A stretch of 48,824 nucleotides of DNA from an uncultured Eubacteriales bacterium. Lineage in GTDB: Bacteria; Bacillota; Clostridia; Oscillospirales; Oscillospiraceae. A model generated the notes under the pieces. That model was not told the DNA's origin and did no database searches. It saw nothing but the letters and a program-made list of their open reading frames with translations. This document shows positions 1,056 through 48,806 of this stretch, one piece after another (position 1 is the stretch's first letter; every line of letters begins with the position of its first letter). Location of the stretch: the NCBI GenBank assembly GCA_900316205.1, contig ONBX01000029.1, positions 1 through 48,824 on the forward strand, given 5' to 3'. The position numbers were made by a program, and so were the translations under genes.

Positions 1056-1120
1056 AGTACCCTCCAAATCCCGAGTTGTCGAGATCATTATAACAGGCAA
1101 CGCACGATATGGAAAGAAGA

Positions 1121-1157
1121 AAAGGGACCCTGATCGTATCATAATCAGAGTCCCTTT
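1121..1157 (-). terminator. Rho-independent terminator closing the tRNA-Pro cassette array
   Basis: A 14-bp stem with one C-A mismatch (AAAGGGAC on one side, GTCCCTTT on the other) is followed on the minus strand by a T-rich run. It lies just beyond the last tRNA-Pro 3'-end copy and is placed to end any transcript of the array. Confidence 0.65.
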
Positions 1158-1165
1158 ATAAGAAA

Positions 1166-1304
1166 TGGTCCGAGTGACAGGGTTCGCTTGCATTTCTTTT
1201 CCGCTTGCGGGAGATGCGGAAAAGAAATCAAGGTATTCACCAGCGTTTGCGCTGGTTCATGCACATGTCACTGACATGTGCGGACATGATTCGAACCCTG
1301 TCAC
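1166..1304 (-). repeat. tRNA-Pro 3'-end cassette with three-hairpin core (element A)
   Basis: On the minus strand this unit ends with 21 bases identical to the 3' end of tRNA-Pro, including CCA (1166-1186). An inverted partial copy lies at 1290-1304, and 1174-1186 pairs with 1292-1304 as a 13-bp helix. The core holds three hairpins: 1192-1204 with 1216-1228 (13 bp), 1239-1245 with 1250-1256 (7 bp, loop TTTG) and 1261-1269 with 1273-1281 (9 bp). The outer helix copies the stacked acceptor and T stems of tRNA, with the core sitting where the T-loop would be. The element near 48559-48702 has the same plan with other stem sequences. I do not recognise it as a named RNA or mobile-element family. 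Confidence 0.8.
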
Positions 1305-1308
1305 CGGC

Positions 1309-1343
1309 AAAAAGCGGGAGCCCTCATGGGGCTCCCGCTTTTT
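1309..1343 (-). terminator. Hairpin terminator between the two tRNA-Pro cassettes
   Basis: A perfect 15-bp stem (AAAAAGCGGGAGCCC and its complement, 4-base loop) directly follows the CCA of the tRNA 3'-end copy at 1343-1366 on the minus strand. The A and T runs flanking the stem make it able to act as an intrinsic terminator. Confidence 0.75.
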
Positions 1344-1454
1344 GGTCCGAGTGACAGGGTTCGAACTCCCTGAAGGGACTAGGATGCCGCTGCGCGTCAT
1401 CCGTCGCTGCCGCCGCGCTGCGCGCGGGCAGGCTCTGTCTACCTGCCGCTCAAG
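1343..1454 (-). repeat. tRNA-Pro 3'-end cassette with multi-hairpin core
   Basis: Bases 1343-1366 repeat, without mismatch, the last 24 bases of tRNA-Pro including CCA. Upstream on the minus strand is a G+C-rich core with several small helices: GGCAGG with CCTGCC, GGATG with CATCC, and TCCCT with AGGGA. Just before the copied 3' end, CAGGG can pair with CCCTG to rebuild a T-arm-like hairpin. The core differs from that of the cassette at 1166-1304. The copies at 1495, 1343 and 1166 are direct repeats 152 and 177 bases apart, as tandem insertion at a tRNA 3' end would leave. Confidence 0.75.
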
Positions 1455-1497
1455 CCACAAACAAGGGAGGCCCCTGCGGGGTCTCCCTTGTTTGTGG
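1455..1497 (-). terminator. Hairpin terminator of tRNA-Pro
   Basis: A 15-bp perfect stem (1455-1469 with 1483-1497) begins within the CCA end of tRNA-Pro on the minus strand. Its T-rich 3' side suits an intrinsic terminator, although the terminal T run is broken by G. Because the CCA bases lie inside the stem, the hairpin and the mature tRNA end are alternative structures. Confidence 0.65.
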
Positions 1498-1570
1498 TCC
1501 GAGTGACAGGGTTCGAACCTGCGGCCTGATGGTCCCAAACCACCCGCGCTACCAGCTGCGCTACACCCGG
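1495..1570 (-). tRNA. tRNA-Pro (anticodon TGG)
   Basis: The 76-base minus-strand sequence folds as a full cloverleaf with encoded CCA. The acceptor stem pairs CCGGGTG with CACTCGG (one G-T), the T-loop is TTCGAAC, and the anticodon loop TTTGGGA carries TGG (positions 1535-1537 on the plus strand). A strong promoter lies at 1614-1642. Two further copies of its 3' end follow downstream in cassettes. Confidence 0.96.
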
Positions 1571-3922: not shown

Positions 3923-4894
3923 ATGATAACGATCGGAAACATCGAATTGACTGGACGGGCGGTGCTGGCCCCCATGGCGGGGGTGACGGACTTTGCCTTC
4001 CGTGCCCTCTGCCGCCGGGAAGGCGCGGCGCTGAGCACCTCGGAGATGGTCTCCGCCAAGGCCCTGGTGTACCGGGACGAGAAGACCAAATCCCTGCTCC
4101 ATCGCCTGCCGGAGGAAACGCCCTACGCGGTGCAGATCTTTGGCCACGAGCCGGAGGTCATGGCGGAGGGGGCAAAGCTCGCCCTGGAGCTCTCCGGCGC
4201 GGACATTCTGGATATCAACATGGGCTGCCCCGTGGGCAAGATCGTGAAGTCCGGGGACGGCTCCGCCCTCATGAAGGACCCCGCCCTGGCGGGGAAGATC
4301 GTGGAGGCGGTGAAGGAAGCCGTTTCTGTCCCCGTTACGGTGAAATTCCGCAAGGGCTGGGAGGGGGGCAGCGTCAACGCCGTGGACTTTGCCCGCACCC
4401 TGGAAAGCGCCGGGGCGGACGCCGTCTGCGTCCACGGCCGCACAAGGGTGCAGATGTACGCCGGCCGTGCCGACTGGGACATCATCCGGGACGTGAAGCA
4501 GGCGGTGAAGATCCCCGTCACCGCAAACGGCGATATCTTCACCGGGGATGACGCGGCCCACATCCTGCACTATACCGGCGCGGACCTCTGCATGATCGGC
4601 CGGGGCGTCTTCGGAAATCCCTGGCTTTTCCGGGAGGCCAACGCCGCCATCGCGGGCGAGCCCATCCCGGCCCAGCCGCCCCTTTCTGAGCGGTTGGACG
4701 CTGCGGCGGAGCAGATCCGCACCCTGGCGGACTTCGCCGGGGAGCGCATCGCCTGCCTGGAGGCCCGCCATCATCTGCCCTGGTATCTCCACGGCGTGGC
4801 CCACGCGGGGATCTACCGCCGGGAGCTGGTCCAGGTATCTACCCTGGACGACATGGACCGGATCCTGCGGCAGATCAAACGAGATTTGAAGTGA
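3923..4894 (+). CDS. dusB: tRNA-dihydrouridine synthase (DusB-like)
   Basis: The 323-residue protein has the flavin-binding start LAPMAGVTDFAFR at residues 15-27, the catalytic cysteine in NMGCPVGKIVKSG (Cys102), VHGRTR near residue 175 and the FMN phosphate loop IGRGVFGNPWLF near 230. It reduces uridine in tRNA D-loops using FMN and NADPH. The nearest bacterial subgroup by eye is DusB, but the exact target cannot be set from sequence alone. It lies 94 bases after xth, with the palindrome between, and 28 bases before the sigma factor. Confidence 0.9.
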   Translation: MITIGNIELTGRAVLAPMAGVTDFAFRALCRREGAALSTSEMVSAKALVYRDEKTKSLLHRLPEETPYAVQIFGHEPEVMAEGAKLALELSGADILDINMGCPVGKIVKSGDGSALMKDPALAGKIVEAVKEAVSVPVTVKFRKGWEGGSVNAVDFARTLESAGADAVCVHGRTRVQMYAGRADWDIIRDVKQAVKIPVTANGDIFTGDDAAHILHYTGADLCMIGRGVFGNPWLFREANAAIAGEPIPAQPPLSERLDAAAEQIRTLADFAGERIACLEARHHLPWYLHGVAHAGIYRRELVQVSTLDDMDRILRQIKRDLK

Positions 4895-4922
4895 AATACT
4901 CTCCACAGAAGGAAGTGATCCC

Positions 4923-5543
4923 TTGACACGAGAACAGGAGCTGACCATCGTTCGCCGAGTGCAGCACGGCGATGTGAACGCCTTTGAGTTGCTGGTGGCA
5001 GCCTACGAAAAAAATGTGTTCAACGTGGCCCTGCAGATGGTAGGGAACCGGGAGGACGCCCAGGACATGGCCCAGGAGGCCTTCCTGAAGGCCTACAACT
5101 CTCTCTCCTCCTTCCGGGGAGACAGTAAGTTTTCCAGCTGGCTCTACCGGATCGTGTCCAACGTCTGCCTGGACTTCAAGCGCCGGCAGGGCCGCCGCCC
5201 CAGTTCCTCCCTCACCGTGGAGGACGACGAGGGCGAGACCCTGGAGCTGGACATCGCCGATGAGAGCCAGTCGCCCGAGGCGCTGCTGGAGCGGAAGCTC
5301 ACCCGGGAGGCCGTGCGCCGCGGGCTGCAGGAGCTGCCTGATGAGCAGCGGCAGATCCTGCTGCTGCGGGAGATCCAGGGGATGAGCTATGAGGAGATCG
5401 GCGAGGCCATGGGGCTGGAGGAAGGAACGGTGAAATCCCGCATCTTCCGGGCGCGAAAAAATCTTTGCGCCTTTTTGCTGAAGGACGGGAACATTCCGGA
5501 CTCCATCGCGTCAAGAAACCCGAGAGGAAGTGATGTCCTATGA
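4923..5543 (+). CDS. RNA polymerase ECF-type sigma factor
   Basis: The start is a TTG at 4923, chosen because GAAGGAAG lies just upstream and the product opens MTREQELTIVRRV. In the 206 residues, region 2 covers about 15-85, with EDAQDMAQEAFLKAY for core binding and FSSWLYRIVSNVCLD for the -10 contact. Region 4 covers about 120-180, with GMSYEEIGEAMGLEEGTVKS as its helix-turn-helix. The family directs transcription of stress or envelope regulons. It overlaps the next gene by four bases and that gene encodes a zinc-finger anti-sigma factor, so the pair is very likely self-regulating. Confidence 0.93.
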   Translation: MTREQELTIVRRVQHGDVNAFELLVAAYEKNVFNVALQMVGNREDAQDMAQEAFLKAYNSLSSFRGDSKFSSWLYRIVSNVCLDFKRRQGRRPSSSLTVEDDEGETLELDIADESQSPEALLERKLTREAVRRGLQELPDEQRQILLLREIQGMSYEEIGEAMGLEEGTVKSRIFRARKNLCAFLLKDGNIPDSIASRNPRGSDVL

Positions 5544-6442
5544 GCCAATGTGAAAACTATCAGGAGCTGATCAGCCGCATGGTGGACGGCGATCTCAGCG
5601 CCCTGGAGGAAGCGGATCTCGCCCGACATATTGAGACCTGCCCCGACTGCGCCGCGCTGTTCCAGGCTTTTTCCGCCCTTTCCAGCCAGATCGGCAAAGA
5701 TTTGGAGGAATCCCCCTTTGATCTGCGGGACAATGTCATGGCCGAGATCCATCGGGAAGAGATCCGCCGCCGCAACCGCATCCCCACCATTTTGCGCAGC
5801 GTCCTCTCCGCCGCTGCCTGCGTTGCGCTGATCGTCGGCGTGTATCTGGGCGTGTCCATCACCCAGGGCAAGAATCTGGTCACCGCTGCCTATGATGCCG
5901 CTCCCGCCGCTGCCGAGGAGAACACCGCCGCCGCGGAAGAGGAAGTCCGGGCCATGCCCGAGGACGCCCCCGCCGCCGCGGAGGAGGCTCCCGCCGAAGA
6001 GGCCGCCGACGCGCCCACGCTGCAGGCCAACGCCGTGGAAGCTGCCCCGGAAAACGACCATCCCCTGCTGGGCATGGGATCCGCCGCAGCCGCCCCCGAG
6101 GAGACCACCCAGGAGGAAACCGAGGCGGAGGCGCCCGCCGAGGCGCTTGGGGAAACTGCCGAGGATGAGGCCGCCGAAGCCCCCGCCCTGGAGGAGTGGG
6201 AGCTTACAAACTGGGACCTGTCCCTGCTGCGGGAGCTTTTGAAGGGCAGTCCGGAGGAGCGCAGCGCCGAGGAGATGGCCTCCCATGCCTTCGGCAGGAT
6301 CCATCTTCAGAATCTCCGGGAGGAGTACAGCGTACTGCTCTATGAAGAGGACGGTGTGCTCTATTACCTGGACCCGGCGGAGGAGACCGTATACCGCTCC
6401 GCCCTCACCGCGGAGGAACTGCGCGCCTTCCTGGCCGCCTGA
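5540..6442 (+). CDS. Anti-sigma factor with N-terminal zinc finger and one membrane segment
   Basis: The 300-residue protein starts inside the sigma gene's stop. HIETCPDC at residues 30-37 is the HxxxCxxC signature of zf-HC2 anti-sigma factors. A single membrane helix follows at about 85-107. Residues 115-220 are very rich in Ala, Glu and Pro and are probably an extended segment outside the membrane. The last 80 residues look folded and match no family I know. By analogy with the family, the cytoplasmic finger holds the sigma factor until a signal releases it. The signal is not visible here. Confidence 0.88.
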   Translation: MSQCENYQELISRMVDGDLSALEEADLARHIETCPDCAALFQAFSALSSQIGKDLEESPFDLRDNVMAEIHREEIRRRNRIPTILRSVLSAAACVALIVGVYLGVSITQGKNLVTAAYDAAPAAAEENTAAAEEEVRAMPEDAPAAAEEAPAEEAADAPTLQANAVEAAPENDHPLLGMGSAAAAPEETTQEETEAEAPAEALGETAEDEAAEAPALEEWELTNWDLSLLRELLKGSPEERSAEEMASHAFGRIHLQNLREEYSVLLYEEDGVLYYLDPAEETVYRSALTAEELRAFLAA

Positions 6443-34083: not shown

Positions 34084-34158
<75 letters not shown>

Positions 34159-34159
<1 letters not shown>

Positions 34160-48558: not shown

Positions 48559-48702
48559 GTGCTCCAGCGGGGATTCGCTTGCATTTGCTTTCCCTTGCGG
48601 GGGACGGGAAAGCAAATAGAGGTATCGCCCAGTTTTTGAACTGGGCGATGAAAGCCACATTGGTGGCTTTCGTACATAATTCGAATCCCCGCTGGAGCAC
48701 CA
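48559..48702 (+). repeat. tRNA 3'-end element with three-hairpin core (element B)
   Basis: A perfect 19-bp inverted repeat (48559-48577 with 48682-48700) encloses three hairpins: 48583-48594 with 48606-48617 (12 bp, loop TTGCGGGGGAC), 48625-48634 with 48639-48648 (10 bp, loop TTTG) and 48650-48658 with 48663-48671 (9 bp). The right arm ends in CTGGAGCACCA, so it equals a tRNA T-strand, acceptor strand and CCA. The order, loop sequences and spacers match the element at 1166-1304, while stems and arms differ. The unit lies opposite in sense to that one relative to the CCA end. Confidence 0.8.
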
Positions 48703-48772
48703 AAAAACACAGGGGGCCTTTGGCCCAATGTCATTAAGATAGTGACATTGGCCGAGGACAGGAAACCTGAAG

Positions 48773-48806
48773 AAAAGAGCACATCGGAAACGGTGTGCTC
48801 TTTTTC
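48773..48806 (+). terminator. Hairpin terminator downstream of element B
   Basis: AAAAGAGCACA pairs with TGTGCTCTTTT, followed by T. A separate hairpin (CCAATGTCA with TGACATTGG) lies between it and the CCA. Confidence 0.75.

Follow-up and report, generated by a model that had tools for sequence, protein, structure and literature searches.

Three-hairpin elements with tRNA-copied arms: candidate integron-like cassettes stacked behind tRNA genes in Oscillospiraceae

Introduction

The classic case of gene capture through folded single-stranded sites is the integron, which is rare in Firmicutes. Phages of the CTX-phi type integrate at dif from a folded single-stranded attP by means of XerC/XerD. 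The IS200/IS605 and REP/RAYT elements have hairpin ends that act as single strands, and small non-autonomous copies of them occur. Stepwise insertion behind a tRNA gene is represented by the additive genomic islands at tRNA-Lys in Methylophilaceae, recognisable by repeats of the final 20 bp of the tRNA, and by the tycheposons of 4–200 kb, in the passages that describe these islands and elements (PMC10872708).

We analysed a 48,824-nucleotide stretch of DNA (the window; contig ONBX01000029.1, assembly GCA_900316205.1) from an uncultured Eubacteriales bacterium, in which two distant elements share a core of three hairpins between arms that copy tRNA sequence. A first-pass annotation, made from the sequence of the window, had known of no described RNA or mobile element with this plan. 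A search of the full-text literature (preprints outside its scope) agreed, returning nothing that combines target-copied arms with three hairpins on a T-arm-like stem.

Results

Two copies of one plan in the window

Copy 1 spans 1166–1304 and copy 2 spans 48559–48702. The common order of parts that the first-pass annotation had proposed for them was recovered in full, with every part in its place. Copy 1 has arms of 13 bp and stems of 13, 7 and 9 bp; copy 2 has arms of 19 bp and stems of 12, 11 and 9 bp. The lengths given earlier stand except for stem 2 of copy 2, which is 11 bp and not 10. The features are as follows, R1 being a covariance model built from five copies.

1119–1160, minus strand: terminator-like hairpin; the same hairpin directly follows the CCA of tRNA-Pro at the empty site L224 (genome G044)
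1166–1186, plus strand: left arm of copy 1, 21 nt, identical to the reverse complement of the tRNA-Pro 3' end from T-loop to CCA
1183–1295, plus strand: core of copy 1, R1 match of 127.5 bits
1187–1191, plus strand: conserved linker CTTGC
1192–1228, plus strand: stem-loop 1 of copy 1, 13 bp, loop TTGCGGGAGAT
1230–1236, plus strand: conserved linker AAGGTAT
1239–1256, plus strand: stem-loop 2 of copy 1, 7 bp, loop TTTG
1261–1281, plus strand: stem-loop 3 of copy 1, 9 bp, loop ACT
1282–1289, plus strand: conserved linker GGACATGA from stem 3 to the right arm
1290–1304, plus strand: right arm of copy 1, putative inverted T-arm half-site TTCGAACCCTGTCAC, matching tRNA-Pro
1309–1343, unstranded: terminator-like hairpin of the unit, with an A-run before and a T-run after it; a terminator by reading on both strands
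1343–1363, plus strand: further direct copy of the tRNA-Pro 3' end (reverse complement), border of the next unit
1364–1493, unstranded: coreless unit with a second terminator-like hairpin at about 1457–1493; no R1 match at E ≤ 0.05
1495–1570, minus strand: tRNA-Pro(tgg), insertion site of the array (ARAGORN)
48559–48577, plus strand: left arm of copy 2, reverse complement of the tRNA-Lys(ttt) 3' end, 19 bp
48574–48685, plus strand: core of copy 2, R1 match of 116 bits
48583–48617, plus strand: stem-loop 1 of copy 2, 12 bp
48624–48649, plus strand: stem-loop 2 of copy 2, 11 bp, loop TTTG
48650–48671, plus strand: stem-loop 3 of copy 2, 9 bp
48682–48702, plus strand: right arm of copy 2, complete tRNA-Lys 3' end CGAATCCCCGCTGGAGCACCA

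The arms had been read as copies of tRNA-Pro in one element and of another tRNA in the other. Both assignments hold, the second tRNA being tRNA-Lys(ttt): the arms of copy 2 are identical to the 3' end of the tRNA-Lys(ttt) genes beside the copies at L080 and L126, and the gene to which copy 2 belongs would lie past the contig end. The extent of the arms in copy 1 had to be revised. Its left arm (TGGTCCGAGTGACAGGGTTCG, 21 nt) exceeds its own paired part and represents the whole tRNA 3' end from T-loop to CCA, and its right arm represents the inner part only, of which CGAACCCTGTCAC pairs with the left arm.

Between copy 1 and the tRNA gene sits the coreless unit, whose borders are copies of the tRNA-Pro 3' end. 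Near the other end of the window, at 48726–48800, a repeat (AATGTCATTAAGATA ... GCACATCGGNAACGGTGTGC) breaks the cassette terminator, as the same repeat does at another contig end (L072, 9680–9790); it is probably an insertion-sequence end that breaks the assembly. The second tRNA gene of the window is tRNA-Met (34084–34159; ARAGORN). At gathering score the window matched two tRNAs only in Rfam, consistent with the earlier view that no known RNA family is involved. Matches at 1100–1480 with E ≤ 1 are far under the gathering score (33.4 bits for the best, against 197).

Size and distribution of the family

The source genome contains six exact matches of a first sequence pattern and 13 copies detected with R1 (E ≤ 1.3e-27). 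As the first-pass annotation had anticipated, further copies occur in related genomes: at E ≤ 1e-3, R1 gave matches in 34 of the 61 genomes of the genus, the source included, with up to 20 per genome, a recurrence well outside chance. At the family level 7 of 150 genomes had matches, namely the source and six genomes from five other genera. Many of the genomes are metagenome assemblies, for which presence or absence depends on the assembly. A second model (R2, built from 65 copies) matched 5 of 394 genomes of the order, again including the source, and newly found G530 (8 matches) and G560; searches over more than 40 genomes ran under strict filters, and given these filters the range in the order may be wider. 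Copies from other genera keep the plan with different linkers, and in 3 of the 23 listed (the outer copies L110, L115 and L117) stem 1 is unrecognisable.

Scanning named genome contigs with a pattern gave 50 loci. The core is present in 47, many of which are contigs already in the genome set and are not independent of it; the other three (L281, L284 and L285) look like chance matches. The titles of the 47 loci name Ruminococcaceae, Oscillospiraceae, Clostridiales/Clostridia and Eubacteriales bacteria, and several give as sources goat and roe-deer rumen, other stomach chambers or colon. DNA similar to copy 1 was not found in phage or plasmid collections. One pattern had no match in IMG/VR; a looser pattern matched four contigs there, three of which carry this element beside a tRNA-like end.

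Linkage to tRNA genes and matching of the arms

We retained 76 of 101 nhmmer hits as near-complete cores in larger loci (at least 50 bits, near full length). A tRNA gene on the opposite strand lies within 1500 bp of 61 of the 76 cores, and the tRNAs represent 16 anticodon types. The core-tRNA distance is 46–68 bp in 49 of the 61, in line with abutment on tRNA genes, which the first-pass annotation had proposed to check in related genomes, and 159–707 bp in the remaining 12, eight of which are outer array members. Among the 47 core-bearing named loci, ARAGORN placed a tRNA on the expected side in 38, at 46–75 bp in 32 of those; in several of the loci without an ARAGORN tRNA, the tRNA sequence is split by another insertion or holds Ns. 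A tmRNA gene is also used as a site: at L085 the core lies about 57 bp behind a tmRNA (Rfam, 1564–1914, 160 bits) that ARAGORN missed.

At the same locus (1564–2888; also L264), two cores with a 116-aa ORF between them form an array at the 3' end of the tmRNA gene (ssrA). Arrays at L147 (5715–5826), L126 (5889–6001) and L096 stand on tRNA 3' parts severed from the 5' part, the tRNA having apparently been split by insertion of a prophage or ICE. An integrase gene lies just past the core at L147.

The target-matching ends described for the two window copies extend to the 61 tRNA-linked elements, whose arms on average fit their own tRNA far better than other tRNAs. Over 12 nt, left arms scored 10.05 against their own tRNA and 5.51 against other tRNAs (2000 draws); the corresponding values for right arms were 8.28 and 5.42 (s.d. 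0.18). The single best-matching tRNA type was the element's own for 45 of 61 left arms (4 ties) and 33 of 61 right arms (9 ties). The tRNA, the left arm and the right arm agree in 53–56 of the 61 elements at the four positions next to the loop, in 25 at the eighth position and in 10 at the twelfth, and the outward drop arises mostly because the right arm departs. Conservation of the inverted arm thus covers the loop and about 8 nt, which would correspond to the size of a recombinase half-site.

Inserted units, arrays and cargo

Insertion can be followed by comparing an empty with a filled site. At the empty site L224 (G044), a terminator-like hairpin stands directly after tRNA-Pro; at the filled site L124 (G033), a hairpin of the L224 type follows a copy of the tRNA 3' end. 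This one pair, from two genomes and not from within one species, defines a clean insertion of 183 bp between two T-loop motifs, with the tRNA left intact and its 3' end duplicated, as is characteristic of tRNA-targeted integrative elements. The L124 insert consists of the core, the inverted arm, a different terminator-like hairpin and the copied tRNA 3' end. The distal hairpin of L224 and L124 is shared by the window and L016/L119, and hairpins of the 1119–1160 type lie distal to the copies in the window, L119/L016, L124 and L037. Read in this way, the hairpin at 1119–1160 would be the ancestral tRNA-Pro terminator, displaced.

The three-hairpin element is one end of an inserted unit of about 165–185 bp or more, sometimes with an ORF. 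The parts of a unit are the inverted T-arm, the core, a terminator of its own and the copied tRNA 3' end. The flank upstream of the element appears, by reading, to be whatever previously lay behind the tRNA.

Units are stacked behind tRNA-Ser, -Pro, -Leu, -Lys, -Ala, -Arg and -Gly. We compared the scores (of two kinds, entered by hand) of the cores nearest to and farthest from the tRNA in 23 arrays, setting aside L114 and L238, whose arrays are cut short where the contig ends. The nearest core had the higher score in 18 arrays and the lower in 4, with 1 tie (p = 0.004); the counts are 16, 3 and 1 when three arrays with interiors over 1 kb are removed. This polarity would follow from entry of new units at the tRNA and decay of old ones.

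Most interiors are short: 75 of the 103 closed by a core or a tRNA measure at most 100 bp. A strict test found a perfect hairpin of at least 7 bp in 49 of these 75, its failures including imperfect hairpins and T-runs cut by the interior end, and 27 of the short interiors have A-runs and T-runs at both feet of the hairpin.

In all eight units of 0.5–0.95 kb (L073, L082, L085, L148, L099, L032, L038 and L249), the longest ORF lies between the tRNA and the core on the tRNA strand (p = 0.008), the count omitting five doubtful closed interiors of more than 1000 bp (L075, L124, L138, L149 and L240). A single gene in fixed orientation followed by a site is a feature of integron cassettes; it is present in these eight units, and most units are without an ORF. 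Several loci are repeats of one another (L250 = L149, L264 = L085, L272 = L124, L033 = L145). Pfam identified two of the eight ORFs as HTH_3 regulators and one as a 23S_rRNA_IVP protein, and five had no match at E ≤ 0.01. An integrase of their own, as integrative elements carry, is absent from the eight unit ORFs, and most units are gene-free.

Exchange of cores between tRNA genes

For each of the 61 tRNA-linked cores we identified the nearest core, skipping pairs within one locus. It was in another genome at a different tRNA for 33 cores, in another genome at the same tRNA for 16 and in the same genome at a different tRNA for 12. A tRNA-Arg copy in G000 and a tRNA-Ser copy in G039, for example, are 92 per cent identical. 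Neighbours at the same tRNA in another genome (16/61) are over-represented relative to the frequency of such pairs (113/1830), which indicates that part of the descent follows the tRNA. The core is nevertheless not tied to one tRNA and would move between tRNAs.

A reading as gene-capture cassettes

Mobility of the family is indicated by the empty site, the patchy distribution, the arrays and the exchange of cores. With middling confidence, we interpret the units as integron-like, site-specific gene-capture cassettes that insert at the T-arm of a tRNA gene. In sequence, a unit combines a copied tRNA 3' end (T-loop to CCA), a terminator-like hairpin, accompanied in some units by an ORF on the tRNA strand, an inverted T-arm half-site and the three-hairpin core; in the one empty/filled pair it lies precisely at the end of the T-loop. 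One strand of the DNA at the site would fold, its two arms forming a T-arm-like duplex half-site of about 12 bp. A recombinase acting in trans would recognise the three hairpins with their conserved loops and linkers, much as extrahelical bases and the folded stem are recognised in attC, and would join the folded site to the tRNA T-arm, which would take the role of attI. New units would enter next to the tRNA while older ones shift outward and decay.

More tentatively, we propose that this is a separate gene-capture system, in which the T-arm of any tRNA or tmRNA can dock, the three-hairpin fold of single-stranded DNA is recognised, and the core re-acquires arms that match its target. If so, one family of sites colonises many tRNA genes and damages none.

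Several observations weigh against interpreting the units as cassettes. No recombinase is linked to them, most are gene-free, and the right arm is best matched by its own tRNA in only 33 of 61 elements. In addition, a crossover in the T-loop alone would leave a chimeric tRNA whenever a unit enters a different tRNA. Either only matching insertions would survive, with selection acting on a few T-arm bases, or the arms would be copied from the target.

Candidate enzymes

ORFs of at least 90 aa around 75 loci were clustered. Eight clusters span four or more array loci, and inspection by eye revealed no recombinase among them. The arrangement of attI beside an integrase, as in integrons, is not seen: the arrays stand at many tRNA genes and have no recurrent recombinase-like ORF cluster. 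The integron integrase profile TIGR02249 gave no match over its curated cut-off of 265 bits in 22 bearing genomes (genomes that carry the element). The best match scored 84.9 bits; most matches fall into two pieces (profile positions of about 5–181 and 237–308), and one of 55 bits (G046) spans positions 9–304.

Nine matches to PF00589 were found in the source genome; judged by eye, they include XerC-like and XerD-like proteins. At L165 a core and a 291-aa tyrosine recombinase (4747–5622) are separated by about 130 bp. Of 38 genomes tested for relatives of this recombinase, 11 have them (15 copies in G080): 5 of the 20 that bear cores and 6 of the 18 that do not. We rejected it as the enzyme.

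PF00589 proteins were clustered from 16 genomes, 8 bearing and 8 not, with 115 loci yielding 110 proteins (66 and 44, respectively; 5 missed, short fragments left out). The XerC-like and XerD-like clusters occur in both bearing and non-bearing genomes. A cluster of seven integrases of the L093 type was found in 6 of the 8 bearing and none of the 8 non-bearing genomes, a split with P of about 0.03 for one cluster if proteins fall at random, among 21 clusters examined. Its members adjoin tRNA-Ala(ggc) or tRNA-Pro(ggg) wherever a tRNA is seen. They look like ordinary integrases and are a weak lead for the enzyme.

These data bear on a first alternative, that the units are very small integrative elements, non-autonomous and dependent on tyrosine integrases borrowed from tRNA-targeting phages and ICEs. 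Their arms would then be ordinary double-stranded att core sites, and the hairpins would serve replication, packaging or the binding of a host factor. Integration at att sites usually leaves a 20-bp repeat of the tRNA 3' end, several bearing genomes are rich in PF00589 matches (15 in G027, 14 in G034 and 11 in G033), and the distribution of the L093-type cluster points the same way. However, a tRNA-targeting integrase usually uses one tRNA, whereas here one core family occurs at 16 anticodon types and the L093-type members, where a tRNA is seen, keep to two. That cluster is also missing from the bearing genomes G152 and G197, and its P value is weak with so many clusters examined. To our knowledge an inverted arm is not part of ordinary att sites. 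We regard this explanation as unlikely.

A single-strand transposon of the HUH/Y1-like kind (IS200/IS605 or REP type) is an improbable second alternative. The core would be its left end, the terminator hairpin its right end and TTCG its cleavage tetranucleotide, and the T-loop would be chosen by base pairing. In its favour, the ends can fold and their stems do not depend on sequence, insertion is 3' of a short fixed motif in the T-loop, and there are units that lack a gene of their own. Against it, Y1 transposase genes (PF01797) are distributed without regard to the element: 7 of the 22 bearing genomes and 7 of the 18 others have them, and at E ≤ 1e-5 the remaining 15 of the 22 have none, which led us to reject this transposase as the enzyme. 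The fixed orientation of the ORFs is also unfavourable, and we know of no HUH/Y1-like element that restores the tRNA and copies 20 nt of its target.

If the units are integron-like cassettes, the reaction may depend on a Xer protein of the host, on a borrowed integrase or on a protein of another kind, for example a serine recombinase, a reverse transcriptase or a casposase-like Cas1. The genome of G072, which is 95 per cent complete, has no PF00589 match at E ≤ 1e-6, yet it carries one well-formed element behind tRNA-Ala.

Folding, covariation and wobble pairs

As single-stranded DNA, copy 1 folds with z = -9.8 on the plus strand and -10.1 on the minus strand, and copy 2 with z = -13.1 and -14.2 on the two strands; none of 200 shuffles was as good for either copy. 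Because both strands fold equally, the active strand is not readable from folding.

The 57 distinct rows of an alignment of copies (A4), fitted to the R1 structure, have 94.7 per cent of their cells paired, against 76.5 per cent for shuffles. Changes on both sides were found at 28 of 39 pairs, and the covariation score is 0.443, compared with 0.138 for shuffled rows and 0.04–0.07 for slid partners. All four Watson-Crick pairs are in use at several stem positions. The selection on structure that the first-pass annotation had deduced from two copies is thereby borne out, and the outcomes that it had named in advance as counting against it (no more copies, loss of pairing, a match to a known family) did not arise. 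Sequence is conserved in the unpaired parts, namely CTTGC, the stem-1 loop, AAGGTAT, the stem-2 loop region and GGACATGATTCGAA. In being conserved by structure rather than by sequence, the sites resemble attC. In stem 2, about half of the copies have a fixed double mismatch (TC opposite TC; A4 columns 89–90 with 166–167) and the others have Watson-Crick pairs, as if there were two alternative recognition states.

In the three main stems (33 pairs), G·T makes up 11 of 1802 cells (0.6 per cent) and A·C 6 of 1802. The acceptor and T stems of 56 tRNAs from the same loci have G·T in 57 of 672 cells (8.5 per cent) and A·C in 9 of 672. The count for the main stems omits six model pairs of conserved linker and loop bases that are rich in fixed G·T; with these included, G·T occupies 136 of 2165 cells. 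From the balance between G·T and A·C in the variable stems, pairing within DNA (as a single strand or a cruciform) or hairpin correction seems likelier than pairing within RNA; correction by template switching would likewise remove wobbles.

A third alternative, a structured or regulatory RNA spread behind tRNA genes, perhaps an acceptor-T-arm mimic that acts on tRNA processing, has to be judged against these counts. A terminator-like hairpin does follow the core on the plus strand, the arms resemble an acceptor/T-arm minihelix, and covariation is strong. A DNA site is nonetheless preferred over an RNA because G·T is rare in the main stems and both strands fold equally. Moreover, by reading there is no common upstream flank able to hold a promoter, no Rfam family matches the element at gathering score, and the units duplicate and carry ORFs, all of which makes an RNA more improbable still.

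Least probable of all is replication slippage, in which snap-back synthesis at tRNA terminators and at the self-complementary T-loop TTCGAA gives inverted tRNA 3' ends that a hairpin-seeking repeat then enters: the right arm plus A-run does form a nearly complete inverted tRNA 3' end in window copy 2, L074 and L137, and perfect Watson-Crick stems fit hairpin correction, but the proximal terminator differs from the ancestral one retained distally, and a core plan common to several genera needs a mobility of its own.

Discussion

The family is frequent in one genus of gut bacteria and scattered among the relatives of that genus. If the units are gene-capture cassettes, they represent a second solution to gene capture, one that docks at tRNA genes with arms copied from the target. 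They would supply many natural insertion points that spare the tRNA, and covarying sites from which the rules of structure recognition could be read directly. The identity of the enzyme that folds and cuts the site becomes a testable question.

The elements share with integron cassettes a foldable site kept by structure, placed after a single ORF of fixed orientation, and arrays at one primary site. The gene-poor units resemble the integrase-free cassette arrays of integrons. Integrons have attI beside the integrase, whereas many tRNA genes and a tmRNA gene are the primary sites here. The fold also differs, with three separate hairpins on one stem and arms that copy the target tRNA. The R-box motif of integrons reads RYYYAAC ... 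GTTRRRY; an R-box pair was found at the edges of 0 of 76 sites on either strand. No IntI exceeded the cut-off in the 22 bearing genomes, and most units are without an ORF. We class the elements as integron-like and not as integrons because IntI, attI and R-box ends were not found.

In CTX-phi, as proposed here, a single strand supplies both inverted half-sites, which pair to make a duplex recombination site. There the target is dif and the unit is a phage genome; here the target is a tRNA gene and the units hold no phage genes. Single-stranded hairpin ends and small non-autonomous copies are shared with IS200/IS605 and REP/RAYT elements, from which the present family differs in having no Y1 association, a restored tRNA and arms that match the target over 8–20 nt.

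Additive islands and tycheposons, in the passages that describe them, likewise grow by stepwise insertion behind a tRNA gene and have copies of the tRNA 3' end as borders (PMC10872708). They differ from the present units, in which no recombinase gene was seen. Compared with the islands and tycheposons of those passages, the units described here are hundreds of bases long, with a three-hairpin core and an inverted T-arm at each border.
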